Assembly (NCBI RefSeq): GCF_035953295.1
Contig: NZ_CP108370.1
Coordinates: 6,123,001-6,187,000 of the forward strand
DNA: 64,000 bases
Reading direction: 5' to 3'
Origin: Streptomyces sp. NBC_01335
GTDB lineage: Bacteria > Actinomycetota > Actinomycetes > Streptomycetales > Streptomycetaceae
In this document: positions 8,524-47,666 of the stretch, one piece after another
How the letters are laid out: the number at the start of each line of letters is the position of its first letter
How positions within the stretch are numbered: position 1 is the first letter of the stretch
Program-made: the position numbers and the translations under genes
The notes under the pieces: generated by a model
Databases searched by the model: none
The model's input: only the letters and a program-made list of their open reading frames with translations
Told to the model about the DNA's origin: nothing

Positions 8524-8796
8524 ATGCCCGCAGTGAGCACGCTCGAGGCGCAGCAGTGGCTGATCGAGAAGATCGCGCATCGCCTCGGCACCGAGCCCGC
8601 CGGGGTCTCACCCGAGATGTACTTCGACGAGATGGACCTGGACTCCACCGAGGCGCTGATCCTCGCAGGTGAGATAGAGAGCTGGCTGGGCTTCGAGCTG
8701 AGCACCACCACCCTCTGGTACCACCCGACCGTCAAGGACCTGGCCGCTCACCTCGCCGAGGAGAGTGACCAGCATGCGGCGGCCGCGCAAGCCTGA
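8524..8796 (+). CDS. Free-standing acyl carrier protein
   Basis: This 90-residue protein is a discrete ACP. The DLDSTEALIL motif carries the Ser that receives 4'-phosphopantetheine (S41); acidic helix II follows (AGEIESWLGFEL) and the PTVKDLAAHLA end is typical. ATG 8524 sits behind GGAAGGA; a longer GTG start is less likely. Its stop lies inside the start of the thioesterase gene, so the two are translationally linked. It is the first gene of the Pfa-type operon. Canonical PUFA synthases use only tandem in-protein ACPs, so an extra ACP suggests a loading or off-loading role, or carriage of a second building block. Confidence 0.92.
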   Translation: MPAVSTLEAQQWLIEKIAHRLGTEPAGVSPEMYFDEMDLDSTEALILAGEIESWLGFELSTTTLWYHPTVKDLAAHLAEESDQHAAAAQA

Positions 8797-9637
8797 ACAA
8801 CCCCTGGTCCACCGCCTGAAGGCGGCGGCCGAGGATCGGCACACGGTGTACCTGGTGCACCCGGGGGCGCTGGACGCCTCCGTGCACCGCTCCCTCGCCG
8901 ACGCCCTCCCCGACGGGATCGGGCTGACCGTCCTGGACCTGGGGGGCGTCGCCGAGTACTGGCAGGCGGCCCTGACCGGGGGACACGCCGACACCACCCT
9001 CGACGCGCTCGCCGCCCGCCTGATGACGGCGGTGGGCATCGGATCCGGTGACGGCCCGTACCTGCTGGCCGGATGGTCCTTCGGCGGGGTCGTCGCGCAC
9101 GCCATGACCGCCCTGGCGGCCCCGCGGCGCCGGCCCTCCCGGCTGGTCCTGCTGGACAGCATCGCCCCCGTCGACGCGTACAAGCACGACGACGACGCGC
9201 TGGAGCCGTCGCTGCTGCTCAACTGGTTCGCCATGTACCTCGGGGCGAAGCGCGGCCGGCTCGTGCCGGTCGAGGAGGAGCAGTTGGCGGGCCTGGGGAC
9301 GGAGGACGGGCTGAAGGTGGTGCTGGAGGCGGCGATCGCCGCCGAGGTGCTGCTGCCCTCCACCCCCCTGCCGGGCCTGCGCAAGCTCTACGACACCTAC
9401 GTCGACGGCCTGCTCCGCAACAACCGCCTGACGCTGCCTCACCGGCCGACGCCGTCGCCGGTACCGGTGGTGCTCGTACGGGCCGACCGGGGACTCGTCC
9501 CCGGCGACCGCGGTATGGGCTGGGAGTCTCTCGCGCCGCACGGTCTCGACGTCCGGGAGTGCCCCGGTGACCACTACACGATGCTGCTGCGCTCCGACGC
9601 CGCGACCACCGTGGCCTCCCTGCTGACCGAACCCTGA
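8774..9637 (+). CDS. PKS-type alpha/beta-hydrolase thioesterase
   Basis: The 287-residue protein resembles PKS/NRPS thioesterases. The nucleophile elbow is GWSFGG (S102), the acid LLDSIAP (D128, 26 residues later as in PKS thioesterases) and the base GDHYTML (H267). It would cut or transfer acyl chains from a carrier protein. The start overlaps the ACP gene by 23 nt at ATG 8774 (GTG 8765 is possible), implying coupled expression. It could be an editing (type II) enzyme or the release enzyme for the Pfa-type chain; the PfaA- and PfaC-like proteins show no terminal thioesterase, which favours release. Confidence 0.88.
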   Translation: MRRPRKPEQPLVHRLKAAAEDRHTVYLVHPGALDASVHRSLADALPDGIGLTVLDLGGVAEYWQAALTGGHADTTLDALAARLMTAVGIGSGDGPYLLAGWSFGGVVAHAMTALAAPRRRPSRLVLLDSIAPVDAYKHDDDALEPSLLLNWFAMYLGAKRGRLVPVEEEQLAGLGTEDGLKVVLEAAIAAEVLLPSTPLPGLRKLYDTYVDGLLRNNRLTLPHRPTPSPVPVVLVRADRGLVPGDRGMGWESLAPHGLDVRECPGDHYTMLLRSDAATTVASLLTEP

Positions 9638-9978
9638 ACCCGGAACGCACCCGGACCGGTGCGGGCCGACCGACCTGACCCCGACCGCTCCGGCCGCTCC
9701 TGACCACCCCGTGACCGCCCGTCGACCAGGGCGGCCGGGCTCAAGGCCCGCGGACTCCACGCGACATGGCGGCAGCCCCGTCCGTCGCGCGCCCCGCCGC
9801 GCCACGTCACCATCCGCGCCACCCCGCACGACCCGCCCGCACACCTGCGGTCCCCGTCACCGGGGCCGCCCGTCCCTCGGGCGTACCTCCAGCACCTCCA
9901 TGCCCTTCCTCCTCCCGCCGAGGCTGGGCCATGTCTTCCTGCATGTCTTCCTGCCCCGACTCGTGGAAGAGCCTCGCT
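9638..9978. other. 341-nt gap before the PfaA-like gene
   Basis: The reading frame of the PfaA-like protein is open back to 9766, but the codons there are Pro/Ala/Arg-rich with no homology, so I leave this as untranslated. No terminator or clear promoter is seen. ATG 9931 and 9943 (the duplicated ATGTCTTCCTGC) are possible earlier starts. Confidence 0.45.
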
Positions 9979-12900
9979 GTGAACGTTCAGGATCCCGACC
10001 TCGACCGCCGCCTCGCCCGCGACCCCATCGCGATCGTCGGCCTGTCCGCCCTCTATCCCCAGTCCCGTGACCTCCGGGAGTTCTGGGGCAACGTCGCCGC
10101 GGCGGCCGACTGCCTCACCGACGTGCCCGACACGCACTGGGACGTCGAGGAGTTCTACGACCCGGACCCCACGGTGCCGGACAAGACGTACGCCAAGCGC
10201 GGCGGGTTCATCCCCGACACCCCCTTCAACCCGCTGGAGTTCGGTCTGCCGCCGAACACCCTGGAGGTCACCGACGTCCTGCAGCTGCTGAGCCTGGTCG
10301 TCGCCCGTGACCTGCTGAAGGACGCCGGAGCCGAACAGCCCTGGTACGACGCCTCCCGCACCGGCGTCGTCCTCGGCATCACCGGCGCCAACCAGCTCAC
10401 CCAGCCCCTCACCGCGCGCCTGCAGAGCCCGGTCCTGAAGGAGGTCGTGCGCAGCTGCGGCCTCACCGAGCGCGACGCCGAGGAGATCGCCGCCAAGTTC
10501 CGCAAGGCGTACGCCCCGTGGGAGGAGAACTCCTTCCCCGGCATGCTCGGCAACGTCGTCGCCGGCCGTATCGCCAACCGGATGGACCTCGGCGGCATCA
10601 ACATGACCGTCGACGCCGCGTGCGCCAGCTCGCTCGGCGCGGTCAAGGCGGCCGTCAGCGAACTGCTGGAGCGGCGCGCCGACACGATGCTGGTGGGCGG
10701 CTGCGACGCCGAGAACACCATCTTCATGTACATGTGCTTCAGCAAGACCCCGGCGTTGTCCAAGGCGGGCCGCATCCGCCCGTTCGACGACGACGCCGAC
10801 GGCACCCTCATCGGCGAGGGCATCGGCATGCTGGCGCTGCGCCGCCTCTCCGACGCCGAACGGGACGGCAACCGCGTCTACGCGGTGCTGCGCGGTATCG
10901 GCGCCTCCTCCGACGGGCGCTTCAAGTCCATCTACGCGCCCCGCAAGGAGGGCCAGGTCCTGGCCCTGGAGCGGGCCTACCAGGACGCCGACTGCTCACC
11001 CGCCGACGTGGGGCTGTTCGAGGCGCACGGTACGGGGACGGCCGTGGGGGACGCCACCGAACTGTCGTCGCTGGCCGCGGTCATCAACGCCGCCACCGAC
11101 GAGCGGCAGTACGCGGCGGTCGGCAGCGTCAAGTCGCAGATCGGGCACACCAAGGCCGCCGCCGGCGCCGCCGGCATGATCAAGCTGGCGCTGGCCCTGC
11201 ACCACAAGGTGCTGCCGCCCACCATCAACGTCGACCGGCCCAACACCGCCGTCGACTTCGAGAACGGCCCCTTCTACGTCAACTCCCGCCTGCGCCCCTG
11301 GATCAAGACGCCCCAGCGCCCCCGGCGTCTCGCCGCGGTGTCGTCGTTCGGGTTCGGTGGCACCAACTTCCACGTGGTGCTGGAGGAGCACGGGCAGGGC
11401 GAGGACCTGAAAGTCATGTTCCCCGTCGCCCGCGTGCACCTGTGGCACGCCCCCGACACCGACGCCCTGCTGCACGCCCTGGAGTCCGGCGCCGCGCCCC
11501 AGGGCGGACCCGCCCCGCAGGACCACGCGCGGGTGGCGTTCGCCGCCCGGAGCGAGGAGGACGCGGCGGCGCTGCGAGAGCTGGCCGTCCGCGAGCTGCG
11601 GAAGCGGGCCGCCGAGAGCGCCTGGTCCCACCCCAAGGGCGTGCACTTCCGCCGCACGGCCGCCGGCGCCGAGGAGATCGGCCGTGTCGGGGCGCTGTTC
11701 GCCGGGCAGGGCAGCCAGTACGTCGAACCGGGCCTGACCGCCGTCCTCGCGCTGCCGCCGCTGCGCGCCGCGTTCGACGAGGCCAACCGGCCCTTCGCCG
11801 ACGAACTCCCGCTGTCCGCCGTCGCGTTCCCGCCGCCCGTCTTCGACGCCGCCGCGGTCGCGGCGCAGGAGGACGCGCTGCGCGCCACCCGTTACGCCCA
11901 GCCCGCCATCGGGGCGCTCTCCGCCGGCCAGTTCCGCTACCTCACCGGTCTCGGCTTCGACCCGGCCGGCTGCCTCGGGCACAGCTTCGGTGAGCTGACC
12001 GCCCTGTGGGCGGCGGGGGCCCTGGGGGACGAGGCGTACTTCGCCCTCGCCCGCGCCCGCGGCGCGGCGATGGCACCGCCGGCCGACGGCGCCGAGGGTG
12101 CCGCGGGTGCCGACGCCGGGGCCATGGCCGCGGTCAGCGCCCCCGAGGAGCGGGTCGCGCAGCTGCTCGCCGCCCTCCCCGACGGCACCGACCTGCGCGT
12201 GTGCAACCGCAACGCCTCGGACCAGATCGTCGTCGGGGGCGCCACCGCCGCCGTCGAGCAGCTGGTGGCGGCGGCGCAGGCCGCCGGGGTCAAGGCGTCC
12301 CGGCTGCCCGTCTCGGCCGCCTTCCACACCCCCTACGTCAGCCACGCCGTGGAGACCTTCCGCGCCGACGTCGACGCCGTCGGGGTGGGCGCGCCCCGCC
12401 GCGCCGTGTACGCCAACACCCGCGGCGCCTCCTACGGCGACGACACCGCCGCCAACGCCCGCATCCTCGCCGAACAGCTCCTCAACCCGGTGGACTTCGC
12501 CGCACGGGTGGAGGAGATGTACGAGGCGGGGTACCGCACGTTCGTCGAGTTCGGGCCGAAGGGCGTCCTGACGCAGCTGGTGCGTCGCGTCCTGAAGGAC
12601 CGGCCGCACACCGTGCTGGCCACCGACGCGGGACCCGGCCGCGACGCGGACGTGGCGCTGAAGCAGACCGTCGCCCAACTCGCCGTCCTCGGCCTGCCGC
12701 TGCGCACGGCGGACGACTACGTCGCGCCGCCGGTGGAGCGCGAGGCCGTCAAGGGCATGTCGATCCTGCTCAACGGCATCAACTACGTCTCCCCGCAGCG
12801 CAAGGCCGCCTACCGGGACGCGTTGGAGAACGGCTACCGGGTGCCGCAGGTGGTGACAGGCCCGACCGGGGGATCGTCGGCCGTTCCGGTCGCCGTGACG

Positions 12901-15900
12901 CCGTCCGCGCCCGTCGCCGTGACGCCGGTCGTCGCGACGCCGTCCGCGCCCGCCGCGACGCCGTTCCCTGTGGCGCCGTCCGCGCCGGTCGTGCCCGTCG
13001 GCCCGTCCGCTCCCGTCGCTCCGCCCCGCGGCCCGGCGGCGCCCGTACCGGTGGGTGCCTCCGCCGGGTCCGCCCCCGGTGGCACCGCAGCCTTCGGCGC
13101 CTCCACCGCCACCGCCCTCGCCGTCCGGCCGGACGTGGCGCCGCCCGCCCCGGCGGCCGCACCCGCCCCCCTTCCCGCCGCCGCCCACGTCGCCGCGTCG
13201 CTCGCGACCACCGCGCCCGCACCCCTTGCCCAGGAGGCCACATCCGTGGACAACGACCACCTGGCCGGCGTCATCGCCGACCACCTGGCGCTGCACGACG
13301 AATACCTGAGCGGACAGCTGGACAGCGCCCAGCGTCTCGCCGCCCTGCTGGAACGCGCCTATGACCAGGGCAGGTTGCCGCAGGTTCTGTCCGGGGTGAC
13401 CGCGGTGAAGGACCACAGCCTGGCCATCGGTCGCACCCACCTGCACGCCCACGAGATCCTCAGCCGCCTCGCCGGGCTGGAGAGGGGCGCGGCGGTGCCC
13501 GCCGCGCCCGCCGTACCCGCCGCTCTGGCTCCCGTACCGGCCGCTCTGGCTCCCGCCGCGCTGGCTCCCGCCCCCGCCGCACCGCAACCGCTCGCGGCAC
13601 CGCAGCCGGTGGCGATTCCCGCCGCCGCGACGGCCGTCGCGCTGCCCGCCCCGACCGCCCCCGCCCCGGTGCTGCCGACGGTGCCGCACCAGGCCGGCGG
13701 CCCCACCTCCACCCCGGCGGCACCGGCTCCCACCGCCACGGCTCCCGCCCCCGCCGTCGCTCCCACCTCCGCCGGTCCGTCCGCGGACGAGATCGCCGGG
13801 GCCCTCCTCGACGTCGTCTCGCAGAAGACGGGTTATCCGGCGGAGATGCTGGAGCTCGGGATGGATGTGGAGGCGGATCTGGGGATCGACTCCATCAAGC
13901 GGGTGGAGATCATGGGTGTGTTGCACGAGCGGTTCGCCGCTGGTGCGCCTGCCGCGGGTCCTGAGCAGTTGGGTGAGTTGCGGTCTCTGCAGGACATCGT
14001 GTCGTTCATGGCGGCTCCTGCCGGGGCTGTCGCGGCTGTGGTCGCGGCGCCGGTGGCTGCTGGTCCGTCCGTGTCCGAGGTGACGGCCGCTCTGCTGGCG
14101 GTGGTTTCGGAGAAGACGGGTTATCCGGCGGAGATGCTGGAGCTCGGGATGGATGTGGAGGCGGATCTGGGGATCGACTCCATCAAGCGGGTGGAGATCA
14201 TGGGTGTGTTGCACGAGCGGTTCGCCGCCGGTGCGCCTGCCGCGGGTCCTGAGCAGTTGGGTGAGTTGCGGTCTCTGCAGGACATCGTGTCGTTCATGGC
14301 GGCTCCTGCCGGGGCTGTCGCGGCTGTGGTCGCGGCGCCGGTGGCTGCTGGTCCGTCCGTGTCCGAGGTGACGGCCGCTCTGCTGGCGGTGGTTTCGGAG
14401 AAGACGGGTTATCCGGCGGAGATGCTGGAGCTCGGGATGGATGTGGAGGCGGATCTGGGGATCGACTCCATCAAGCGGGTGGAGATCATGGGTGTGCTGC
14501 ACGAGCGGTTCGCCGCCGGTGCGCCTGCCGCGGGTCCTGAGCAGTTGGGTGAGTTGCGGTCTCTGCAGGACATCGTGTCGTTCATGGCGGCTCCTGCCGG
14601 GGCTGTCGCGGCTGTGGTCGCGGCGCCGGTGGCTGCTGGTCCGTCCGTGTCCGAGGTGACGGCCGCTCTGCTGGCGGTGGTTTCGGAGAAGACGGGTTAT
14701 CCGGCGGAGATGCTGGAGCTCGGGATGGATGTGGAGGCGGATCTGGGGATCGACTCCATCAAGCGGGTGGAGATCATGGGTGTGCTGCACGAGCGGTTCG
14801 CCGCCGGTGCGCCTGCCGCGGGTCCTGAGCAGCTGGGTGAACTGCGGTCTCTGCAGGACATCGTCAGCTTCCTCACCGGCACCCCCGCCGACGCCGCTCC
14901 CGCCACCACCGACCTGGCCGCCCCGGCGCCCACCGCCCCCGCCACCCCCGAGCCGCCCCGTATAGGCCGGGCCCGGGCCGCGGTCGTCGCTCTCCCGGCA
15001 CCGGACGAACTCCTCGCCGCCTACCCCGAGTCGTCGGCCGCCCTGCTGGTCGACGACGGCGGTGAGCTCGCCCCCGCACTCGCCGCACGCCTGCAGGGCC
15101 AGGGCTGGAAGGTGCACGTGCTGCGCCTGCCCGGCGTCCCGCAGCGGGTGGACGGCGCCGTCGACCACGCCCTGACCGGATGGGGCGTCACCGAACTCGC
15201 CGCCCGTACCGGGGAGATCGTCACCGAGGGCGTCAGCCTCGTCCTGGACCTGTGCACGAAGGAGCCCACCGACTGGGCCGAGGCGGTCCGCCGCCTGGCG
15301 CACACCCTGCTCACCGCCAAGCACCTGGTGGAGCCGCTGAGCGCCGGCGCCGCCACCGGCCGCACCGCCTACACCACCGTCACCCGCCTCGACGGCGTGT
15401 TCGGCGTCACCGGCGTCGACGAGGCCCGTACCCCCCTCGGCGGGGTCGCCGGCCTGGTGAAGACCCTCGCCGTGGAGGCGCCCCGCGTGTTCTGCCGGGC
15501 CGTCGACCTGGCCCCGCACCTCGACGCGGACACCGCCGCCGACCTGGTCCTCGCCGAGACACGCGACGCCGCCACCACCCCCGTCCAGGCCGGTCACGAC
15601 GGCATCCGCCGCGTCACCCTCACCGTCGGCGAGCGCGCCCCGCACCCGGCCGGGGCCGAGGTGCCCCCCGTCGGCCCCGATGACCTGCTGGTCGTCACCG
15701 GTGGCGCCCGCGGCATCACCGCCGTCTGCGTCGCCGAACTCGCCAGACGTCACCAGGTGGGCCTGCTCCTGCTGGGCCGCACCCCCCTCGTCGACGAGCC
15801 CGCCTGGGCGCACGGTCTGCACGACGCCGCCGCGCTGAAGGCCGCCGCGGTCGCCGACCTGAAGGCGGCCGGGGAGAAGCCCACCCCCAAGCGCATCGAG

Positions 15901-17367: not shown

Positions 17368-17377
17368 CGACCTGACC

Positions 17378-17421
17378 CGGTCGGCCCGCCGGGTGCCCCC
17401 GAGCACCCGGCGGGCCGACCG
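17378..17421. terminator. 19-bp perfect hairpin between the PfaA- and PfaC-like genes
   Basis: CGGTCGGCCCGCCGGGTGC pairs perfectly with its complement at 17403-17421 across a six-base loop. It begins 11 nt after the PfaA-like stop and ends six nt before the ribosome site of the PfaC-like gene. It has the form of a Streptomyces terminator but sits inside an operon, so it may be an attenuator, a partial terminator that sets subunit ratio, or an mRNA stabiliser. Confidence 0.75.
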
Positions 17422-17443
17422 TCCACGAAGGGACCCCGCTCGC

Positions 17444-33402: not shown

Positions 33403-33428
33403 GATGTTCACCTTCCTTCTGGCCACTC

Positions 33429-36372: not shown

Positions 36373-37254
36373 ATGCGTCTGGCACCTTCCTCCGGCACCA
36401 CCCCCCGCACCTCCCGCAACCAGTTCACCGCCACCGCCACCGCCACCGCCACCGCCACCGCCACCGCCACCGCACCCGTTCCCCGCCTGAGCGGGCGGCG
36501 CGTCCCCGAGGTGTCCTTCGCCCTCCTCGGGCCCCTGCGCGTGCGCGTCGACGGCCGTGACGTACACCTTCCCGAGAGCCGCCAGCTGACGGTTCTGGCC
36601 GTGCTGCTGACGGAGGCCGACCGGGTCGTCCCGGTCAGCCGGCTGGTGGACGCGGTATGGGGCGGCACACCGCCCGCAACCGCCGACAAGCAGATCCAGA
36701 CGTGTGTGTGGCGCCTGCGCAAGGCGTGGACGGAGGCCGGCGGTCCCCCCGACCTCATAGAGACCGTCCGCGGGGGCTACCTGCTGCGGGTGTCCGACGA
36801 CGGCCTGGACACCCGCCAGTTCGAGAGACACCGAGAGCGGGGCCGGGCCGCCGGTGACCTGGAGGGCGCCGTCGAGCACTACCGCGCCGCCCTGGCCCTC
36901 TTCCGCGGCGAACCTCTCGCCGGCCTCACCAGCCGGGGCCTGGCACCCGTCGCCGCGTACTGGGCGGAGCGCCGCCTGACGCTGCTGGAGGAGTGCTTCG
37001 ACGCCGAACTCGGCCTGGGACGCCACCGGGAGCTCGTCGGTGAGCTCAGCCTCCTGGTCGACGAACACCCCCTGCGGGAACAGCTGCGGGGCCGCCTGAT
37101 GACGGCGCTGTACCTCTCCGACCGGCGTGCCGACGCCCTCGCCACCTACCGTGCCGGGCGCGCCGCCCTCGTCAGCCACGTCGGCCTCGACCCGTGCGCC
37201 CGTCTCCAGGACCTGCACCAGCGGATCATCGACGGGCACCCGGTGAACGTCTGA
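36373..37254 (+). CDS. SARP-family pathway activator
   Basis: The 293-residue protein has an OmpR-type winged helix (about 48-125; FALLGPLRVRVDGRDVHLPESRQLTVLAVLL, then LVDAVWGGTPPATADKQIQTCVWRLRK and VRGGYLLRV) followed by a bacterial transcriptional activator domain (about 132-285; AALALFRGEPLAGL, LVDEHPLREQLRGRLMTALYLSDRRADAL). This is the small-SARP layout of ActII-ORF4 and DnrI, which switch on antibiotic clusters by binding direct heptamer repeats near -35. The repeat array at 45077-45220 is a likely target. The N-terminus carries a (Thr-Ala)8 run from a hexanucleotide repeat. ATG 36373 follows GGAG; a later GTG at 36511 is possible. Confidence 0.93.
   Translation: MRLAPSSGTTPRTSRNQFTATATATATATATATAPVPRLSGRRVPEVSFALLGPLRVRVDGRDVHLPESRQLTVLAVLLTEADRVVPVSRLVDAVWGGTPPATADKQIQTCVWRLRKAWTEAGGPPDLIETVRGGYLLRVSDDGLDTRQFERHRERGRAAGDLEGAVEHYRAALALFRGEPLAGLTSRGLAPVAAYWAERRLTLLEECFDAELGLGRHRELVGELSLLVDEHPLREQLRGRLMTALYLSDRRADALATYRAGRAALVSHVGLDPCARLQDLHQRIIDGHPVNV
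36427..36474 (+). repeat. ACCGCC hexanucleotide repeat inside the SARP gene
   Basis: Seven perfect ACCGCC units (36427-36468) plus a near-copy encode alternating Thr-Ala before the DNA-binding domain. The unit length is a multiple of three, so slippage would change the linker by two residues without a frameshift. Confidence 0.95.
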
Positions 37255-38516: not shown

Positions 38517-39538
38517 CGGGCCGACCCCGGGACGGCGGCCGCGGCCCCGCCCCGTGCGGAGGTCCGCGCGGACGATCGCGCGGACCCGGTGGACGACGAG
38601 GGGGCCGTGGCCCTCCCGCGCGTCTTCCGCCCGGCCGGCGCGGGGCGCGCACCGGCGACGAACGTCGTGCCCGCGCCCGCGCGTGCCGCGGTCACGGGCG
38701 ACTCCAGCCGCCCGTCACCGATCACCACGTGCGGCACCCCGCCGGCGAACGCCTCGGCGGCGCTGCGGACCTTCACCCGCATCCGCCCCGACGCCATCGG
38801 CAGGTGGGCGTCCAACTCGTCGTGCGGCAGCCGCTCCACGACACTGGTCGCGTCCGTGCCGTCGCGCAGCAGTCCGGGGACGTCCGACAGCAGGATGAGC
38901 CAGTCGGCCCCCACCGCGACGGCCAGGCGGGCGGCGAGCCGGTCGGCGTCGACGTTGACCATGCCCTCCGCCGCGTCCAGCGCCGGCGGGGAGACGACCG
39001 GGGTGAACCCGCCGCCGAGCAGCGTCAGCAGCAGCGCCGGGTCGACCTCGCCGATGCGGCCGGAGTGGTCGTCGCGCACCACGCATTCCACCCCGTCCAC
39101 CACCGCCCGCGCCGGCGGGTTGCGTTGCGCGGTGACGAGCGTCCCGTCCAGTCCCGAGAGCCCCACCGGCCACAGCCCCGAGCCGCTGAGCGCCGCCAGC
39201 AGCGTCGGCTTGACGCGGCCCAGCATCGCCATGGCGAGCACGTCGAGGGCGGGGCCGTCGGTGTAGCGGCTCTGCCGGCCGCCGGGGGCGGTCATCCGCC
39301 GTGTGGGCCGCCCGAGTTCGGCGGCGAGCCGGTCCGCCTCGGCGCCCCCGCCGTGCACCACGACCACGTGGTGCCCGGCGGCGCTCAGGCGGGCGATGTC
39401 GGCGCCGGCGTCGCCGATCCGCTCCTGCAGGGAACCTCCGAGCTTGACGACGATCCGCTCAGGCCGGGTGGAGCCCGGCGAAGGAAAGTCCCGCCGACTC
39501 CTCGAGTCCGGCGGCGATGTTGACGCACTGGACGGCAT
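38513..39538 (-). CDS. lysZ-like: LysZ-like [LysW]-aminoadipate/glutamate kinase
   Basis: The protein belongs to the amino-acid kinase family (acetylglutamate kinase/LysZ): RIVVKLGGSLQ binds ATP phosphates, VVVVHGGGAEAD binds substrate, and GLSGLDGTLVTA, NVDADRLAARLAVAVGADWLILLSDVPGLL complete the fold. It would phosphorylate the side-chain carboxylate of carrier-bound glutamate. The start is uncertain: homology begins about 30 codons inside; ATG 39538 has GAAAGGTGG eight nt upstream and overlaps the LysY-like gene by 80 nt, while no start codon exists nearer the domain. The C-terminal 50 residues are Ala/Arg/Ser-rich and atypical. Confidence 0.85.
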   Translation of the reverse strand: MPSSASTSPPDSRSRRDFPSPGSTRPERIVVKLGGSLQERIGDAGADIARLSAAGHHVVVVHGGGAEADRLAAELGRPTRRMTAPGGRQSRYTDGPALDVLAMAMLGRVKPTLLAALSGSGLWPVGLSGLDGTLVTAQRNPPARAVVDGVECVVRDDHSGRIGEVDPALLLTLLGGGFTPVVSPPALDAAEGMVNVDADRLAARLAVAVGADWLILLSDVPGLLRDGTDATSVVERLPHDELDAHLPMASGRMRVKVRSAAEAFAGGVPHVVIGDGRLESPVTAARAGAGTTFVAGARPAPAGRKTRGRATAPSSSTGSARSSARTSARGGAAAAVPGSAR

Positions 39539-40481
39539 TGCCGGCACCACCTTTCACCAGGTTGTCCATGGCCGCCACCACGATCAGGTGGTCCCCCTCG
39601 GAGTTGAGGGAGAGGCCGATGTCGCAGAAGTTCGTCCCGCTGAGGATCTTCGGGTCGGGCATGCGGCGCAGCGCGGACCGCTCCCGCACCAGTCGTACGA
39701 AAGGCTCGCCACCGTAGGCGTCGCGGTACAGCGCCCACACCTCCCGCTCGGTGACGGGCCGGGACGGGGTGATGTGCACCGCCACCTGGATGCCCCGGAC
39801 GGCGTCGACGGCGGTGACCGTCATCCGTACCGGCACCCCGCAGGCCTGCTCGATCTCCGCGGTGTGCCGGTGCCCGTGCGGTTTCGCCATGCGCAGCGCG
39901 CCCGCCCGCTCCGGATGGTGGCTGCCCTCGTCGGGCACCCGGCCGCCGCCGCTGGAGCCGGTACGGGCGTCCACCAGTGCCGGCCCCGCCACCAGACCGG
40001 CGGCGGCCAGCGGGTGCAGGGCCAGGATGCCCGCCCCGGCCATGCACCCGGCCACCGCGATGTGCGAGGCGCCGCGCAGCCGTTCCCGGTACAACTCCGG
40101 TACGCCCGGCTGGAAGCGGTCCAGCCACTCCCGGGTGGCGGTGGATTTCGGGTAGTGGCGTGCGCGGAGGGCGTCGTCGTGGACGCGGTGGTCGGCGCTG
40201 AGGTCGATGACGGTGGGCGCCAGTGCCGACCAGCGCTCCACCGCCTCCGCCGACGCGCCGTGGGGCACGGCGAGGAACACCACGTCGGACTCGGTGGCGT
40301 CCTCCGAGGCGATGAACGCCGGTGCGCTGGCCCCGCGCAGGTTGGGGTGCGCGGCGTGGAGGGGGCGGCCGCGCAGCCGGGTGGAGGTGGCCTGCGCCAG
40401 CTCCAGGTGGGGGTGTCCCAGCAGCAGTCGGAGCAGTTCGCCGCCGATGTAGCCGCCGGCGCCGACCACGGTGGCTTTCAC
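39459..40481 (-). CDS. lysY-like: LysY/ArgC-like [LysW]-acyl-phosphate reductase
   Basis: The 340-residue protein is a semialdehyde dehydrogenase of the ArgC/LysY type. The N-terminus has the NADP-binding VVGAGGYIGGELLRLLLGHP, the catalytic Cys is C146 in AVAGCMAGAG (normally NPGC), and the later segment KPHGHRHTAEIEQ carries the His that completes the active site. It would reduce the carrier-bound glutamyl phosphate to the semialdehyde, the acceptor for the transketolase step. GTG 40481 overlaps the LysX-like stop (GTGA). The changed residues around C146 fit secondary-metabolic LysY branches but were not compared with any alignment. Confidence 0.9.
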   Translation of the reverse strand: MKATVVGAGGYIGGELLRLLLGHPHLELAQATSTRLRGRPLHAAHPNLRGASAPAFIASEDATESDVVFLAVPHGASAEAVERWSALAPTVIDLSADHRVHDDALRARHYPKSTATREWLDRFQPGVPELYRERLRGASHIAVAGCMAGAGILALHPLAAAGLVAGPALVDARTGSSGGGRVPDEGSHHPERAGALRMAKPHGHRHTAEIEQACGVPVRMTVTAVDAVRGIQVAVHITPSRPVTEREVWALYRDAYGGEPFVRLVRERSALRRMPDPKILSGTNFCDIGLSLNSEGDHLIVVAAMDNLVKGGAGNAVQCVNIAAGLEESAGLSFAGLHPA

Positions 40482-41371
40482 GCCGCCGTCACCTCCTCGT
40501 CGCGCAGGGCGTCCAGGACGTGGTCGACGACGAGGCCCGCGACGTCCAGACCGGTCGCGGCCATCAGGCCGTGGAACTCCATCGTGTGGTTGACCTCCGT
40601 CACCAGCACCTCGCCGTCGCGGCGTTCGATGAGGTCGACGGCGAGCATGCCGCCGCCGACCGCCTCCGCCGCAGCGAGGGCGAGCTTCGCCAGCTCCGGC
40701 GTCACCTCGCACACCTGGGTGGAGGCGCCCCGCGCGGTGTTGGTGATCCAGTGGTCGGAGGTGCGGTACACCGCCGCCACGACCCGGTCGCCCAGCACCA
40801 GCGCGCGGATGTCCCGGCCGGGCGCGTCGATGAACTCCTGGACGTAGAACACCGAGTGCTGGGGGGAGCGCAAGGACTGCCGGTGTTCGATGACGGTCTC
40901 GGCGGCGTCGCGGTCGTTGACCTTCGACAGCAGCCGCCCCCACGACCCGACGAGCGGTTTGAGCACTGCCGGGTACCCGATCTCCTCGACGGCGCGCAGG
41001 GCGGCGTCGGGGGTGAGGGCGACGACGGTACGAGGGGTGGGGACACCGGCGTCGACGAGGGCGAGGGAGGTACGGAGCTTGTCGCCGCACACGTCGATGA
41101 CGTCGGCGGTGTTGAACACCGTGTGCCCCGCCGACTCGTACAGGCGGGCGGCGTAGAGGCTGCGGGTGTGGGACATGATCCGGTTCAGCACGCCGCGGTG
41201 GCGCACCCCGGTCCGCGACGCGAGGTCGCGGACCAGGGTGCGGTCATCCACGGACTCGTGCGGCACGCCCCGGTGTTCCAGGGCCTCCAGGATCAGCCGT
41301 TCCTCCAGCCGGATCCGCGTGGTGAGGACGGCGAGGGTGCCGTCCGGTGACGCACTCGTCTGCACGGTCAC
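40478..41371 (-). CDS. lysX-like: LysX-like ATP-grasp ligase charging the LysW-type carrier
   Basis: The 297-residue protein is a RimK/LysX ATP-grasp ligase. Visible parts are the N-terminal domain (TTRIRLEERLILEALEHRG), CGDKLRTSLALVDAGVPTP, the ATP-binding YPAVLKPLVGSWGRLLSKV, the FYVQEFIDAPGRDIRALVLG strand and the metal site AVDLIE...VTEVNHTMEFHG. LysX joins the alpha-amino group of an amino acid to the C-terminal Glu of LysW. Glutamate is the expected substrate by analogy with vazabitide-type pathways; the sequence alone does not separate glutamate from aminoadipate. GTG 41371 overlaps the carrier gene stop (GTGA); the long upstream frame is a shadow. Confidence 0.92.
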   Translation of the reverse strand: MTVQTSASPDGTLAVLTTRIRLEERLILEALEHRGVPHESVDDRTLVRDLASRTGVRHRGVLNRIMSHTRSLYAARLYESAGHTVFNTADVIDVCGDKLRTSLALVDAGVPTPRTVVALTPDAALRAVEEIGYPAVLKPLVGSWGRLLSKVNDRDAAETVIEHRQSLRSPQHSVFYVQEFIDAPGRDIRALVLGDRVVAAVYRTSDHWITNTARGASTQVCEVTPELAKLALAAAEAVGGGMLAVDLIERRDGEVLVTEVNHTMEFHGLMAATGLDVAGLVVDHVLDALRDEEVTAA

Positions 41372-41547
41372 TCCCCGAAGTCTTCTTCGATCTCCGGCGC
41401 GAGCGCGTACTCGACCGGGCTCGCGATGATGACTTCCAGCTCCACGGAGCAGGACGGGCAGACGACGATGGACGCGACGCGGACGTCGGCGGGCGCGGGG
41501 ACGCTCTGCGCGCACTCGGGGCAGGCGCTGGTGACGGCGGTGGTCAT
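41368..41547 (-). CDS. lysW-like: LysW-like amino-group carrier protein (AmCP)
   Basis: This 59-residue acidic protein has the LysW pattern: a zinc ribbon with CPEC near the N-terminus and CPSC in the middle, a strand of ELEVIIASP type, and the C-terminal signature EEDFGE (canonical EDWGE). The last Glu is the attachment site to which LysX links the substrate amino group, so intermediates ride on this protein while the side chain is modified. ATG 41547 follows GAGGAG and overlaps the transketolase stop (ATGA). The Trp-to-Phe change in the tail is seen by eye only. It was too short to be found easily by gene callers. Confidence 0.93.
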   Translation of the reverse strand: MTTAVTSACPECAQSVPAPADVRVASIVVCPSCSVELEVIIASPVEYALAPEIEEDFGE

Positions 41548-42638
41548 GACACGTTCTCCTCTTCGGTCGGGTGGTGCGGGGCATGGTGCGGGTCGTGCTG
41601 GTGATGGTGCGGGTGGTGCGGATGGCGGTCGTAGGGGCGGCCGTCGACGACGGCCCGCGCTGCGCGGTGCACGGCCTCGGCGGTGACGCCGGCGCCGGCC
41701 AGCTGCTCCCGGTGCCCGCCCGGCCGGGTGGCGAACACGTCGGGGACCCCCAACGCCACCACCCGCGCCGGAGCGTGCGCGGAGAGCGTCTCGGCGACGG
41801 CGCCGCCGAGTCCGCCGAGCACCGAGTGGTCCTCGACCGTGACGAGGCCGGCGCCGGCGCGGGCCGCCTCCACCAGCGCCGCCACGTCCAACGGCTTGAT
41901 CGTGTGCATGTCCAGGACGGCGGCCCGGACGCCCTCGGCGGCCAGCGACCGGGCGGCTTGCAGCGCGAAGAGCACCGGGAGGGAGCCGGCCGCGACGATC
42001 GTCACGTCCCCGCCCTCCCGCAGCCGCCGCGCCCGCCCGACGGTGAACTCCGCCGGACCGCCCACCGACTCCGTCGCCGCCCGGCCCAGCCGGATGTACA
42101 CCGGTCCCGGCAGGTCGGCCGCCGCCCGCACCATCCGTACCGTCTCGTCGGCGTCGGCGGGCGTCATCACCGTCATCCCGGGCAGCGTCCGCAGCGCCGC
42201 GAAGTCCTGCGTGGCGTGGTGGGTCGGCCCCAGGTGCCCGGCGGACAACCCGGAGTGGGTGGCGACGATCCGTACCGGCAGACCGGGATAGGCGATGTCC
42301 GTCTTCACCTGCTCCAGGGCCCGCGCGGAGGCGAACGCGGCCATGGTGTTGACGAACGGCCGTACGCCGGTCGCCGCCAGGCCCGCCGCGACCGACACCA
42401 TGTTCGCCTCGGCTATGCCCAGGTCCACGTACCGGTCGGGCAGCGCCGCCTGGAACGACTTCTCCAGGCCGCCCATGTCGGAGTCCAGGCACCAGATCCG
42501 CCCGTCGGACAGGGCGAGTTCCAGCAGCGTGATCCGGTAGGCGGTACGGTCCGAGCCGTCCCACGACGGCGCGTGGGCGGCCACGGCGTCCTGCGCGGAG
42601 GCGGGGGCGGGGGTGGCCGGTACCGGCACGCCGCTCAC
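41544..42638 (-). CDS. Transketolase, C-terminal (pyrimidine/transferase) subunit
   Basis: The 364-residue protein has the pyrimidine-binding and C-terminal domains of a split transketolase: DLGIAEANMVSVAAGLAATG, THSGLSAGHLGPTHHATQDFAALR, and DMHTIKPLDVAALVEAARAG. Together with the N-terminal subunit it binds thiamine diphosphate and moves a two-carbon ketol unit. In vazabitide biosynthesis such a pair extends carrier-bound glutamate semialdehyde; the same job is inferred here. The last 30 residues are striking: eleven His in a His/Pro tail before TEEENVS, which may bind metal or contact the zinc carrier. GTG 42638 overlaps the preceding stop (GTGA). Confidence 0.92.
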   Translation of the reverse strand: MSGVPVPATPAPASAQDAVAAHAPSWDGSDRTAYRITLLELALSDGRIWCLDSDMGGLEKSFQAALPDRYVDLGIAEANMVSVAAGLAATGVRPFVNTMAAFASARALEQVKTDIAYPGLPVRIVATHSGLSAGHLGPTHHATQDFAALRTLPGMTVMTPADADETVRMVRAAADLPGPVYIRLGRAATESVGGPAEFTVGRARRLREGGDVTIVAAGSLPVLFALQAARSLAAEGVRAAVLDMHTIKPLDVAALVEAARAGAGLVTVEDHSVLGGLGGAVAETLSAHAPARVVALGVPDVFATRPGGHREQLAGAGVTAEAVHRAARAVVDGRPYDRHPHHPHHHQHDPHHAPHHPTEEENVS

Positions 42639-43567
42639 CGCCCGGCCCGCAGCGCGGCCAGCGCCCTGTCGTACGCGGACGCCGACAGCTTCGCGAAGTG
42701 CCCCTGCTTACGGTGCTCCAGGTGTCGCACCCCCCGGCCCTTGACGGTGTCGGCGATGACCACCGACGGGCGGCCCGGTACCGGGGGCCGCTCCAGCGCC
42801 GGCACCAGCCGCGTGAAGTCGTGCCCGTCGGTCTCCGTCACCCGCCACCCGAAGGCGCGCCACTTGTCGGCCAGCGGCTCCAGCCCCATGCGTTCCTCCG
42901 TGCCGCCGCTGATCTGCAGCCGGTTCCGGTCGACGACGGCGGTGAGGTTGTCCAGCCCCAGGTGCGCGGCGGACATCGCCGCCTCCCAGTTGGACCCCTC
43001 CTGCAACTCCCCGTCGCCCAGCAGGGTGTAGACGCGGGTGTCCGCCCCCGCCCGGTGCGCGGCCAGCGCCAGCCCGGTGGCCAGCGACAGGCCGTGACCG
43101 AGGGACCCGGTGGCGAACTCCACCCCCGGCACCGCCGGAGTCGGGTGCGCCCCCAGATGCCCGGCGGGCGTGCCGTAGGTGTCGAGGTCCGCCGTCGGGA
43201 AGAAGCCCCGTTCGGCGAGGGTGGCGTACAGTGCCGCCCCCGCGTGGCCCTTGCTCAGCACGAAGCGGTCGCGCCCCTCCCACCGGGGCTCCTCGGGCCT
43301 GATCCGCAGCACCCGGAAGTGCAGCGCCACCAGCAGGTCGGTCGCCGACAGACAGCCGCCTATGTGCGCGCCGACCGTGCCGGCCGCCATCCGCAGCACG
43401 TGCTCCCGCACCGCCAGCGCCTTCTCCCGGAGGTCGTCGTGGGGGTCGGTGGGCAACCCCTCGACCAGCTCCGGGGCCGGGCCGGGGACCAGCCCCGGCG
43501 CGGACGGTACGGACGGGTGATCGGTCGCCGCCTGCGCGGACACCGGGCGCGCCAGCGGCACGCTCAC
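42635..43567 (-). CDS. Transketolase, N-terminal (thiamine diphosphate-binding) subunit
   Basis: The 310-residue protein has the diphosphate-binding domain of split transketolases: GTVGAHIGGCLSATDLLVALHF, the RFVLSKGHAGAALYATLAERG segment, GSLGHGLSLATGLALA, and the Mg/thiamine motif GDGELQEGSNWEA followed by VVDRNRLQISG. It pairs with the downstream subunit. Transketolase genes of this size inside a LysW operon are the mark of AmCP-dependent specialised metabolism rather than lysine or arginine synthesis. GTG 43567 overlaps the aminotransferase stop (GTGA). The first 40 residues are Pro/Ala-rich and probably disordered. Confidence 0.92.
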   Translation of the reverse strand: MSVPLARPVSAQAATDHPSVPSAPGLVPGPAPELVEGLPTDPHDDLREKALAVREHVLRMAAGTVGAHIGGCLSATDLLVALHFRVLRIRPEEPRWEGRDRFVLSKGHAGAALYATLAERGFFPTADLDTYGTPAGHLGAHPTPAVPGVEFATGSLGHGLSLATGLALAAHRAGADTRVYTLLGDGELQEGSNWEAAMSAAHLGLDNLTAVVDRNRLQISGGTEERMGLEPLADKWRAFGWRVTETDGHDFTRLVPALERPPVPGRPSVVIADTVKGRGVRHLEHRKQGHFAKLSASAYDRALAALRAGR

Positions 43568-44916
43568 GCGGTCCTCCCGGCGGCCCCGTGACCCGGCACG
43601 ACCGCCCACGGCGGCGCGTAGTCCAGCGACCGGGCGATGCGCCCGATGACGTCCAGGTTCTCCCACACCCGCTCGAACGCGGTCGCGTAGGCGTCCAGCG
43701 CCGGGCCCGCGTCCGGGTTGAGGTGCATGCGGCGCAGGCACAGCGAGTCCTCGATGACCTGGCAGGTGACGGGGTAGTCCGCGAGGTCGTACCGCTGCGG
43801 GTTGACGCCCGGCAGCGTCCACGGGTAGCCCTTGCCGTAGGCGTCCTGCTTCTGGAACACCGGCTGACCGGGCAGCGGGATGATCTGGTAGTGGGTCAGC
43901 GGCACCCCCTCGGCGAGCAGCGCCCGGCGCAGAGCCTGCCGGAACGGACCGGCCTCCACGCCCTCCAGGCCCGCCGCGCTCGGGTCGAAGCGGAACCGCA
44001 GCATGTGCCACATGTGGGTGCGGTCCTCCGGCACGGTGGGGACGACGATGCCGGGCAGCGCCGCCAGCCGGTCCAGGAACACCGGGATGTTCTTGTCCCG
44101 CCGCTCCTGGTAGTCCCAGAACCGGTCCAGCTGCGCCCGGGTGAACGCCGCCAGCACGGAGGACAGCTTGAGGTTGGAGCCGCGCGTGGCGGACACGTAC
44201 AGCCGCTCGTCCGTGCTCAGGTCCTCGCCCAGCACGCGCAGACTGCGGCAGCGCGTGGCGACCTCCTCGTCGTCGGTGACGATCAGCCCGCCCTCGCCGC
44301 ACGTCGGGATCGACTTCTCCACGTTGAGGCTGAACACCGACGCGGCACCCATCGAACCGGCCGTCTCACCGCGGTACTTGCCGCCCTGCGCCTGCACGGC
44401 GTCCTCGATCACCAGCAGGTTGTGGCGCCGCGCCAGGGCCCGGATCTCGTCCATGTCGGCGGGCAGCCCACCCAGGTGGACGGGGATGATGGCACGCGTG
44501 CGGTTGGTGATCTTCTCCTCGATGCGGGTGACGTCGATGTTGAAGGTGACGGGGTCGATGTCGACGAACACCGGCACCGCCAGCTGGTACAGCGGCGCCA
44601 TCGCGGTCGCCACGTAGCTCAGCGCCGGCACGATGACCTCGTCACCGGGCTGGATGCCCAGCGCCGTCAGCGCCAACTCCAGCGCCACCGTGCCGCTGTT
44701 GACGGCCACCGCGTGGCGGGTGCCGCAGAACTCGGCCCACTCGCTCTCCAGGCCGCTGATCTCCGGCTCGTTCTTCGCGCCGACGGTGAACTTGCGGCTG
44801 TCCAGGACCCGCAGCACGGCGTCCCTGTCGGCCTGCGTCACCACCGGCCACTCCAGCCGCCGGTGCTCCGGTTCCACCACGGGCTTGTTACCGAACATCG
44901 CCAGCTGTGCCGTCAT
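43564..44916 (-). CDS. DegT/DnrJ/EryC1-family PLP aminotransferase
   Basis: The 450-residue protein belongs to the DegT sugar-aminotransferase family: VNSGTVALELALTALGI near the cofactor phosphate, IEDAVQAQGG (D172 pairs with the pyridine nitrogen), FSLNVEKSIPTCGEGG with Schiff-base Lys201, and LRVLGED further on. It would aminate the ketone made by the transketolase pair on the carrier-bound chain, giving the second amino group. It is the first gene of the operon; ATG 44916 follows GGAGAGAG. The gene is divergent from the acyltransferase gene across the repeat-rich promoter. A role on a sugar nucleotide is unlikely, since no sugar genes are present. Confidence 0.9.
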   Translation of the reverse strand: MTAQLAMFGNKPVVEPEHRRLEWPVVTQADRDAVLRVLDSRKFTVGAKNEPEISGLESEWAEFCGTRHAVAVNSGTVALELALTALGIQPGDEVIVPALSYVATAMAPLYQLAVPVFVDIDPVTFNIDVTRIEEKITNRTRAIIPVHLGGLPADMDEIRALARRHNLLVIEDAVQAQGGKYRGETAGSMGAASVFSLNVEKSIPTCGEGGLIVTDDEEVATRCRSLRVLGEDLSTDERLYVSATRGSNLKLSSVLAAFTRAQLDRFWDYQERRDKNIPVFLDRLAALPGIVVPTVPEDRTHMWHMLRFRFDPSAAGLEGVEAGPFRQALRRALLAEGVPLTHYQIIPLPGQPVFQKQDAYGKGYPWTLPGVNPQRYDLADYPVTCQVIEDSLCLRRMHLNPDAGPALDAYATAFERVWENLDVIGRIARSLDYAPPWAVVPGHGAAGRTA

Positions 44917-45272: not shown

Positions 45273-46373
45273 ATGGACGTCACGCGAACCGGGCGGGGCG
45301 TCGTGACCGCGCCCACCTGGCGCATCTCACCGACGGTGCCCGAGCAGGTGGCGCCCAGCTGCCTGTACGACTCGGAGCCCTGGCTGCGCGGCTGGGAGCG
45401 GGTCACCGTGGAACGCCGCGCCCGCACGGCGTACGTGCACACCGACCCCGACGCCCCCGGCGCCCGCGCCGACGACGGGGTGGCGGTGCTGCCCCTGTAC
45501 GCCCTGCACGAGAGCCCCTTCTGGGACGGCTACGAACGGCAGGTGGACCTCGTCGGCCGCTTCGGCGACCCCGTCGTCTTCGCCGGCTCGCCCTATTCCA
45601 TGTACACCCGCCGCGGTCACGTGCCCGCCGCCCTCATCGAGGGAGCCCACACCACCGCCATGGAGTGGATCGCCGAGGGCGTCGGGGAACTCCTCGTCGT
45701 CCCCAACCTCACCGAGGAGGGGGTGGAGGACTGGCTGCGGGTGGCCGGTGAGCCGGTGGGGCGCCTGCTGCTGGAACGCACCTACGCCACCGACCTCGCC
45801 GACGACCTCGACACCCAGCTCCACCGCACCACCAACAAGATCCGCCGGGACGTGGCGCGGCGCCTGCGCCGTGCCGACGAACGCGGCCTGACGGTACGGG
45901 TGGTGGAGGGGGAGGAGGCGCGCGCCCTGGTGCCCGCCGTGTACCCGCTGACGGTCGACACCAGCGACAAGAACGACTGGCCGCCGCTCTTCGACGAGGC
46001 GTCGCTGACCGCCCTGCTGGAGATTCCGGGGGCGTTCCTCCTCGTCGCGGAGGTCGACGGCCGGCTCGTCGGCGCGTTCTTCGCCTTCCGGCGCGGCACC
46101 GAGGTCACCTTCATGTGCGGCGGCGTCAGCTACGCCACCCTGCACGACCTGAGCACGTACGTGGCGCTGATGTACCGCGGCACCGAGTGGGCCTACGCCA
46201 ACGGTGTGCGGCGCCTGGAGTGGGGCCGGGACAACTACCGCTTCAAGGAGCGGCACGCGCTGACCGGAACGGACCTGTACGCCCTCGTCTACGCACCCGG
46301 CCCGCGCCCGGACCTGGTCCCCGAACTGCGGCGCATGCACGCGGAACTGTCCGCCTACATCGAGGGGGAGTAG
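45273..46373 (+). CDS. GNAT-fold / FemAB-like acyltransferase
   Basis: The 366-residue protein has a two-part layout. The second half shows the GNAT/FemAB core: TTNKIRRDVARRLRRADERGLTVRV, LLVAEVDGRLVGAFFAFRRGTEVTFMCGG, and YVALMYRGTEWAYANGVRRLEWGRDNYRFKERHAL, close in style to DUF482/BioF2-type acyltransferases. Relatives transfer aminoacyl or acyl groups onto amines. It is the first gene rightward of the shared promoter and is probably co-expressed with the AmCP operon, so it may join the amino acid to an acyl chain or another amino acid. ATG 45273 follows AGGAGG. The donor and acceptor are unknown. Confidence 0.75.
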   Translation: MDVTRTGRGVVTAPTWRISPTVPEQVAPSCLYDSEPWLRGWERVTVERRARTAYVHTDPDAPGARADDGVAVLPLYALHESPFWDGYERQVDLVGRFGDPVVFAGSPYSMYTRRGHVPAALIEGAHTTAMEWIAEGVGELLVVPNLTEEGVEDWLRVAGEPVGRLLLERTYATDLADDLDTQLHRTTNKIRRDVARRLRRADERGLTVRVVEGEEARALVPAVYPLTVDTSDKNDWPPLFDEASLTALLEIPGAFLLVAEVDGRLVGAFFAFRRGTEVTFMCGGVSYATLHDLSTYVALMYRGTEWAYANGVRRLEWGRDNYRFKERHALTGTDLYALVYAPGPRPDLVPELRRMHAELSAYIEGE

Positions 46374-46376
46374 TCG

Positions 46377-47666
46377 ATGGGAGCGGCCCGGCGTCGCGCG
46401 GCGTTGCTGTTGGCGGCCGTCGTCAGCGTGAACGCCTCCTACACCGTCATGATCCCGTTCGTGCCGGACCTGGAGCACCGCGTCGGTGCGGGCCCGCTGG
46501 TGGTGGCGCTCACCTTCGCGCTGTTCGCGGCGGCGAAAGCACTGGCGCAGCCCGTCGGCGGCTGGTGGGTCGACCGGTGGCGCGCCGACCGGGTGGCCAT
46601 GCTGTCGATGCTGCTCGCCGCCGTCGGCATCGCCGCCACCGCCCTCGCGACCGACGGGGTGACCCTGCTCACCGCCCGCGTCGTGTGGGGCGTGGGCGAA
46701 GGGCTGGTCAGCCCCGCCCTCTACGCAGGGATGGCCGCCCTGTGCCGTCGCTACGACGTGCCGACGAGCCGCATGATGGGCTCCTTCGGCGCCGCCGCCA
46801 TCGCCGGCTTCCTCCTCGGGCCGCTCATCGCGGGCGTGGCGGGGCCGGCGGGGCTCACCGGGCTGTTCCTCGGCGGGGCGGTGGTGACGGCCGTGACGGC
46901 GGTCGGCCTGGTCCTGGCGATCCCCGGACCCGACGCCGGGAAGACCGCGGACACCGGCGCCCCCGGGGAGGCGGCGGCAGGGACCGGCGCACCCGCGCCG
47001 ACGGAGCCCCCCACAGCCGAGGGCGCCCCGGCCTCCCCGTCCCGCTGGTACGTGTGGGCGCTGTTGCTGGGCCTGATGGACATGTTCACCTTCATCGTCT
47101 ACTCGGCCCTGGAACCTCTGCTCCCCATGCACCTGCGCGCCGTCGACGACGGCTCCTCCCGCTCCGTGATCTCCGCCGTGCTCGTCGGGGGCCTGGCGGT
47201 GTCCGCGTTCGTCATGTGGCTGATGGGCCGCTTCTCCCCTTCGCTGCGGCGCCTCACCGTGACGGGCCTGGCGCTCAGCGCCGTCGGCCTGTGCGCGCTG
47301 GCCGCCGGCACCTCCGTCTGGGTCGTCGCCGCCTGCTTCCTGGTCTACATGGCCGGCTACGCGACGCTGTTCCTGGCGGCGCGGCGGGGTGTGGTGGAGC
47401 TGAAGGCGGCCCATGCCGACGACGGCAAGGCGTACGGCCTGTTCGGCTTCGTCTCCGACCTCGGCAACGTCGTCGGCCCGCTGATCGGCGTCGCGCTGTA
47501 CGAGGCGACCGGCCGGTTCACCTTCGCCCTGCTGGGGGCGGCGAGCGCGGTGGCGCTGGTGGCGGTGACGGTCGTGCTGCGCCGCCCGGGGCTGATCCCC
47601 GGCCGCGTCGCCGCGCAGGGCGGCCCCTCCCGCACCCCGGCGGCGGTCGCGGGCACCGCGCCCTGA
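46377..47666 (+). CDS. MFS exporter (12-TM type)
   Basis: The 429-residue membrane protein has twelve predicted hydrophobic segments in two halves joined by a Gly/Ala/Pro/Thr-rich cytoplasmic linker (about 180-222). Helix 1 is followed by VPDLEHRVGAGPLVV; the loop-2 region reads AQPVGGWWVDRWRADR; helix 4 has ARVVWGVGEGLVSPALY. It starts three nt after the acyltransferase stop, so the two form an operon. It is the second exporter of the locus and is likely to move the product or an intermediate. Substrate specificity cannot be read from the sequence. Confidence 0.9.
   Translation: MGAARRRAALLLAAVVSVNASYTVMIPFVPDLEHRVGAGPLVVALTFALFAAAKALAQPVGGWWVDRWRADRVAMLSMLLAAVGIAATALATDGVTLLTARVVWGVGEGLVSPALYAGMAALCRRYDVPTSRMMGSFGAAAIAGFLLGPLIAGVAGPAGLTGLFLGGAVVTAVTAVGLVLAIPGPDAGKTADTGAPGEAAAGTGAPAPTEPPTAEGAPASPSRWYVWALLLGLMDMFTFIVYSALEPLLPMHLRAVDDGSSRSVISAVLVGGLAVSAFVMWLMGRFSPSLRRLTVTGLALSAVGLCALAAGTSVWVVAACFLVYMAGYATLFLAARRGVVELKAAHADDGKAYGLFGFVSDLGNVVGPLIGVALYEATGRFTFALLGAASAVALVAVTVVLRRPGLIPGRVAAQGGPSRTPAAVAGTAP

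Follow-up and report, generated by a model that had tools for sequence, protein, structure and literature searches.

Polyunsaturated fatty acid (PUFA) and secondary lipid synthases, grouped into Types A-T, contain a PfaA of KS-AT-tandem ACP-KR organization, a KS-CLF-DH2 PfaC, PfaD and a phosphopantetheinyl transferase (PPTase); in Types C and D, a fused PfaBC has the domain order KS-CLF-AT-DH2 (PMC3098273). In the zeamines, fabclavines, megapolipeptins and chitinimines, the head of the molecule comes from a second pathway, combined with a Pfa-type chain (PMC13291983). The vazabitide A and azinomycin pathways use a kinase, a reductase, a two-part transketolase and an aminotransferase, with an amino-group carrier protein (AmCP) in the case of vazabitide A (PMC9570651). 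Here we describe a gene cluster of Streptomyces sp. NBC_01335 (G000; genome 8.36 Mb) in which a Pfa-type lipid synthase and an AmCP pathway lie side by side. The window, the whole stretch of DNA analysed, is 64,000 bases long (contig C1, 6123001-6187000).

This cluster is a variant of the known hybrid lipid clusters. Its PfaA, PfaC, PfaD and PPTase resemble those of PUFA and secondary lipid synthases, and its fused PfaBC has the order of Types C and D; the S. coelicolor Type L synthase differs in being ordered KS-CLF-DH2-AT with pfaD at the 5' end (PMC3098273). Beyond the PUFA synthase components, the cluster adds two acyl-dehydrogenase-like proteins, an FAD oxidoreductase of amine-oxidase fold (AO), a DUF3291 protein and a free acyl carrier protein (ACP). 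Unlike the hybrid PUFA-PKS-NRPS lipid clusters, it has no nonribosomal peptide synthetase (NRPS) or modular polyketide synthase (PKS), and the head is predicted to come from the AmCP pathway. Like the vazabitide A and azinomycin pathways, it has the kinase, reductase, two-part transketolase and aminotransferase, with the AmCP shared with vazabitide A (PMC9570651); unlike them, it lacks a sulfotransferase and includes both a Pfa synthase and a FemX-like GNAT transferase. The original prediction, made from the sequence alone, listed PfaA, PfaC, PfaD, an ACP, a thioesterase (TE), a PPTase, an AmCP gene set, a SARP, a MerR and exporters. Pfam and NCBIfam profile searches of the window proteins, scored against curated cut-offs, recovered all of these at their predicted places and on their predicted strands (Table 1), together with genes that had been missed: the two acyl-CoA-dehydrogenase-like genes (ACAD1 and ACAD2) and those for the FAD oxidoreductase, DUF3291 protein, cupin, FemX-like GNAT and PadR regulator.

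Judged by sequence comparison, this is a single biosynthetic gene cluster of about 6.25-47.7 kb, and the segment bounded by the free ACP (8524) and the second exporter (47666) acts as a single unit. In tblastn searches, the genes from the thioesterase to the second exporter are collinear in Streptomyces sp. SPB074 (G010), a draft assembly in which PfaA, PfaC and ACAD1 are interrupted or flanked by runs of N. Collinearity extends from inside PfaA onward in Streptomyces sp. TP-A0356 (G169), whose contig stops inside PfaA. The flanking open reading frames (ORFs) tested beyond the block are unconserved in both strains, with PadR in SPB074 the sole exception. In a fourth genome, G326, a piece of the PadR gene (79 bases, 81%) is joined straight to the GNAT tail (last 67 residues) and the exporter: the junction falls at window base 6390 and then about 46161, and both matches overlap by 7 bases. 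This state is most simply explained by one 39.8 kb deletion; the remnant has 90% DNA identity to TP-A0356. Chance neighbourhood is therefore ruled out by the preservation of gene order and content in two other species, against unconserved tested flanks, and by the single junction in G326. The same arrangement in three species and the loss of the whole block at one junction agree with the original prediction that the halves form one unit. Rather than always lying apart in relatives, they are linked in three of the ten genus genomes with both PfaD and LysW.

These ten come from a genus sample of 392 genomes searched for both markers, with PfaD present in 37 and a LysW match in 59 (none in 333). 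PfaD and LysW are about 16 kb apart, in identical arrangement, in G000, G010 and G169; they are separated by 198 kb to 2.8 Mb in G093, G129 and G354, and lie on separate contigs in G017, G135, G214 and G302 (the LysW match being below cut-off in G214 and G302). Ten co-occurrences compare with 5.6 expected (hypergeometric p 0.035), a weak statistic that ignores kinship, so the unit claim rests on linkage. Most of the cluster genes have low dN/dS (NG86, PfaC left out): the ratio is below 0.5 in 22 of 23 genes against SPB074 and in all 20 validly compared against TP-A0356. The exception is LysW against SPB074, with a ratio of 1.33 at a dS of 0.07 over 59 aa. For comparison, rpoB dS is 0.29 (SPB074) and 0.27 (TP-A0356).

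We propose the following pathway, its individual reactions inferred from known families, with the order of the carrier chemistry modelled on azinomycin and vazabitide (PMC9570651) and the lipid chemistry on PUFA synthases (PMC13291983, PMC3098273). The Pfa-type synthase, with the ACP, PPTase, two acyl-dehydrogenase-like enzymes and FAD oxidoreductase, would produce a long polyunsaturated acyl chain. LysX would load an amino acid, probably glutamate, onto LysW; LysZ would phosphorylate and LysY reduce the carrier-bound glutamate to a semialdehyde, which the split transketolase would extend by two carbons and DegT would aminate. LysK would then free a diamino-dihydroxy acid (DADH) from LysW, and the FemX-like GNAT would probably put an amino acid from aminoacyl-tRNA on an amino group of this head. 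The acyl chain would be attached afterwards, and two MFS pumps would export the product. Because PfaB has been described as a terminal acyltransferase (PMC12895367), transfer of the chain to the head may fall to the fused AT or to the thioesterase.

On balance, we favour the reading that both halves contribute to one molecule, a lipid-amino acid natural product. Several observations weigh against it. No clear acyl-to-amine ligase was found among the cluster proteins. In TP-A0356, dS is greater in the carrier half (0.73, 10 genes) than in the lipid half (0.55, 8 genes; Mann-Whitney p 0.023), which casts doubt on a strictly shared history of the halves in that strain; in SPB074 the mean values are equal (lipid 0.251, 11 genes; carrier 0.245, 10 genes). 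These means omit PfaC, the cupin and SARP in both strains and PfaA also in TP-A0356, where its front part was not counted, since it matched a different KS (37%) and the real one is missing from the contig. LysW is unlinked or missing in 25 of the 28 genus genomes that bear the lipid core (PfaD plus AO): 20 are without any LysW match, and five have LysW elsewhere (distant in G129 and G354; on another contig in G017, G135 and, weakly, G214). LysW is likewise without a match in the genomes of all seven named non-AmCP relatives. The pair formed by the GNAT and the adjoining exporter (MFS2) also occurs in another genus (G406, G455) without either half, and the Trp that PMC12945691 also names for DhpH-C was not located in the GNAT.

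It is less probable that two neighbouring pathways yield a polyunsaturated lipid and, independently, a DADH-containing peptide, being kept together by co-regulation or joint action. The separable GNAT-MFS2 pair and the unequal dS in TP-A0356 would fit this explanation, as would several genomes in which the part of the lipid-core flanks that was read shows no recognised partner, and the DADH-type gene sets that stand apart from Pfa genes at 20 further LysW loci that were read. It accounts less well for an order that is the same in three species, with the regulators and exporter 1 sitting between the halves, and for the loss of the whole block at a single junction in G326.

The lipid core is wider than the PfaD/LysW pairing and occurs alone or beside another module. 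AO was sought in the 37 PfaD-bearing genus genomes alone (not in the other 355) and is present in 28, lying on the same contig as PfaD and at most 18 kb from it in 26 (on another contig in G017 and G071). A non-exhaustive scan of a species collection with two short AO peptide patterns gave nine loci (compared with the 28 PfaD plus AO genus genomes), two with LysW and seven without. Gene calling placed ACP, PfaA, PfaBC, PfaD, two ACADs, PPTase, AO and DUF3291 in all seven of the latter, with MerR in six and a thioesterase in two. The free ACP was found in eight of the nine named relatives; the ninth, TP-A0356, is cut off by the contig end.

We also read, partially, the flanks of 21 further core-bearing genus genomes (G011, G017 and G071 left out; one piece for G135, G315, G269 and G323, two for G214). 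Eight Streptomyces (G066, G225, G027, G250, G211, G131, PTY087I2 and ISL-1) have, adjoining the core, what we take to be a 3-hydroxyanthranilate-type module: DAHP synthase (not reached in G027 and G250), a PhzE-like chorismate-binding enzyme, a PhzD-like isochorismatase, SDR, amidohydrolase, AMP ligase and KSIII. Its genes occur with or without modular PKS genes, and an aromatic head on a Pfa tail may represent a separate compound class. No partner module was seen beside the core in G033, G091, G193, G262, G275, G377 and G323 (one side read for G323), nor in Wenjunlia, S. tateyamensis and NBC_01481, within the flanks read. G286 and G096 have four other flanking families in common; the core flank of G135 is cut, and the reading of S. 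lichenis and S. ruber ended inside or just past PKS genes.

In a midpoint-rooted AO tree of 31 rows, the three AmCP clusters form one clade (100/100) within a supported seven-row set that also holds two aromatic-module rows and two partnerless rows. The tree and the flank survey together suggest, most simply, that the carrier half joined a more widespread lipid core once, as far as sampled. Somewhat more speculatively, the Streptomyces Pfa core may be a plug-in lipid-tail module with exchanged heads, either 3-hydroxyanthranilate-type or GNAT-lengthened DADH, leading to lipopeptide-like molecules made without an NRPS.

A link between thioesterase loss and modular PKS genes was considered and dropped. 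Four strains that show PKS genes (PTY087I2, ISL-1, S. lichenis and S. ruber) have no thioesterase, yet NBC_01481 also lacks one with no PKS seen in the sequence read; contrary to the same link, G211 has a partial thioesterase alongside the 3-hydroxyanthranilate-type module. A second core layout, with AO first and then ACP, TE, PfaA, PfaC and PfaD, is seen in G129, G354, G214, G315 and G269. G129 and G354 also carry a diverged LysW operon distant in the genome.

Like the FemABX-like enzymes DhpH-C, VlmA, PacB and Orf11, the GNAT has a predicted double GNAT fold, and its motif N321-Y-R-F324-K325 holds N, F and the presumed catalytic Lys in the same spacing as DhpH-C (PMC12945691). The closest folds are those of aminoacyl-tRNA-dependent enzymes (peptide synthases). 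N-x-x-F-K is kept in SPB074, TP-A0356, the G326 remnant, G406 and G455; four distant relatives have N..YK (two), N..AK (one) or neither (one). The GNAT differs in that its sequence matches no solved structure significantly (its profile gave two short unrelated hits, E 0.023 and 0.4), so its FemX kinship rests on the predicted fold and these residues. Given both features, aminoacyl-tRNA is the probable source of an amino acid that the GNAT transfers, and the joining of lipid and head may be the work of another enzyme.

That the GNAT is itself the joining enzyme, N-acylating DADH with the Pfa chain from acyl-ACP, seems to us unlikely. Its distribution would suit such a role: it has no match at the 20 other LysW loci read, and in the 392 genus genomes (five candidates scored per genome) matches of at least 74% are confined to the three cluster genomes and the G326 remnant (69 residues), the other four being at 27-30%. 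N-myristoyltransferases have the same double GNAT fold, and the CoA pattern Q/R-x-x-G-x-G/A is absent. Against this, the nearest folds and the N-x-x-F-K residues belong to aminoacyl-tRNA-dependent enzymes, and a 51% relative has as neighbours an aminotransferase and a protein resembling carboxylate reductases, the stretch read around it containing no Pfa genes. In G406 and G455, which belong to another genus of the same family, a class-III aminotransferase, a FemX-like GNAT, an MFS exporter and an adenylation-carrier-reductase protein (profiled in G406, not in G455) make up a small cluster.

For the carrier half, a DADH-type pathway is the most likely assignment, as originally predicted: profile searches found all of the expected parts, namely LysW with LysX, LysZ, LysY and LysK homologues and, for the DADH branch, a two-subunit transketolase with an aminotransferase. 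LysW has one match in the whole genome. In three species it has two CPxC pairs and the terminus EDFGE, as expected of a zinc ribbon with a C-terminal Glu; the canonical terminus is EDWGE. The LysK-like protein scores above the cut-off of the subfamily model and slightly below that of the equivalog model NF003367 (351.6 bits, cut-off 363).

We regard it as very improbable that the carrier half instead makes an aziridine azabicycle of the azinomycin/vazabitide type, placing a DNA-alkylating warhead on the lipid. The kinase, reductase, transketolase and aminotransferase are as for azinomycin and the AmCP as for vazabitide A, but aziridine closure is described as proceeding via a sulfated intermediate (PMC9570651). 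A scan confined to 25 cluster proteins, and not extended to the rest of the genome, turned up no sulfotransferase family, which makes an aziridine unlikely. Finally, ordinary lysine or arginine biosynthesis, present here by chance, can be rejected with near certainty on gene content and LysW rarity: although the LysX/Y/Z/K families are common to primary pathways, the 333 genus genomes without a LysW match argue against a general need, the carrier block and the Pfa genes keep the same order in three species, and the transketolase and DegT occupy the place of the class-III aminotransferase that primary lysine and arginine AmCP pathways use.

The earlier statement that no compound class is known from a Pfa/AmCP pairing is in line with the open-access literature (most subscription papers lie outside this scope), where we found nothing uniting the fields of PUFA-type synthases and amino-group carriers, or joining LysW, transketolase and biosynthetic gene cluster. 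A 3-hydroxyanthranilate/PUFA pairing was absent among the open-access matches listed, and no described product was found for the PfaD plus AO lipid core of Streptomyces. Should a single product come from both halves, three non-NRPS templates would contribute to this lipid-amino acid: a Pfa synthase, an amino-group carrier protein and an aminoacyl-tRNA ligase. A Streptomyces lipid core that changes partners (PfaD plus AO, 28 of 392 genomes) would make head-group exchange testable.

Table 1. Predicted features of the cluster, in window coordinates
Feature	Position	Strand	Basis
PadR-family regulator, probable left cluster edge	6251..6820	-	Pfam PadR + Vir_act_alpha_C; kept in SPB074; left end of G326 junction
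Free acyl carrier protein	8524..8796	+	PF00550 45 bits
Thioesterase, GWSFGG motif	8765..9637	+	PF00975 58 bits
PfaA-like: KS, AT (GHSFG), four tandem ACPs, KR, DH	9766..17367	+	TIGR02813 2295 bits, cut-off 1010
PfaBC-like (PfaC + fused PfaB-type AT): KS, CLF, AT (GYSLGE), two FabA-type DH/isomerase	17393..25042	+	Pfam
PfaD enoyl reductase	24967..26715	+	TIGR02814 645 bits, cut-off 449; PF18328
Acyl-CoA-dehydrogenase-like protein 1	26712..28457	+	profile search
Acyl-CoA-dehydrogenase-like protein 2	28444..30240	+	profile search
Phosphopantetheinyl transferase	30359..31243	+	PF01648 51 bits, cut-off 25
FAD oxidoreductase, amine-oxidase fold (AO), lipid-core marker	31306..32607	+	profile search
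MerR regulator	32686..33426	-	Pfam
DUF3291 protein	33531..33995	+	accompanies lipid core in 9/9 named relatives
MFS exporter 1	34083..35540	+	profile search
Cupin	35655..36125	+	profile search
SARP activator	36373..37254	+	Pfam
LysK-like [LysW]-amino acid hydrolase	37425..38516	-	TIGR01902 266 bits, cut-off 163
LysZ-like [LysW]-glutamate/aminoadipate kinase	38513..39367	-	NF010659 234 bits, cut-off 223
LysY/ArgC-like semialdehyde-forming reductase	39459..40481	-	TIGR01850 322 bits, cut-off 233.6
LysX-like ligase	40478..41371	-	TIGR02144 316.5 bits, cut-off 275.6; nearest solved structure 3vpd
LysW amino-group carrier protein, 59 aa	41368..41547	-	PF21344 38.2 bits, cut-off 27
Transketolase C-terminal subunit	41544..42638	-	profile search
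Transketolase N-terminal subunit	42635..43567	-	profile search
DegT-family aminotransferase	43564..44916	-	PF01041 305 bits
FemX-like double-GNAT transferase	45273..46373	+	PF13480; predicted fold; N-x-x-F-K residues
MFS exporter 2, adjoining GNAT	46377..47666	+	profile search

The lipid half contains the components of a PUFA synthase: PfaA (KS, AT, tandem ACPs, KR), PfaC (KS-CLF, two FabA-type domains), a PfaB-type AT, PfaD and a PPTase. The four ACPs of PfaA each have the motif LGIDSIKRVEI and are 96 aa apart; the start codon may be at 9979, and that of PfaD at 25066. PfaBC matches FabA with 258 bits over two stretches and has two KS stretches and a CLF without the active-site Cys. Its AT has a Pfam score of 29.3, below the cut-off of 32.7, and in its GYSLGE motif a Tyr precedes the catalytic Ser, as in PfaB (PMC12895367).

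The nearest solved structure of AO is LkcE (E 9e-26). An LkcE-like function was rejected: at the places of E64 and R326, the key residues of the LkcE-type amide oxidase/cyclase (PMC6162330), AO has Ile63 and Tyr333 (phmmer alignment, hand-counted; second place poorly aligned). Just outside the cluster, a 776-residue ORF (window 49409-51739) has no Pfam match and a strong coding signal. The usual catalytic residue of the acyl-CoA dehydrogenase family is Glu; by eye, both acyl-CoA-dehydrogenase-like proteins (26712-30240) have an apparent Asp at the expected position.

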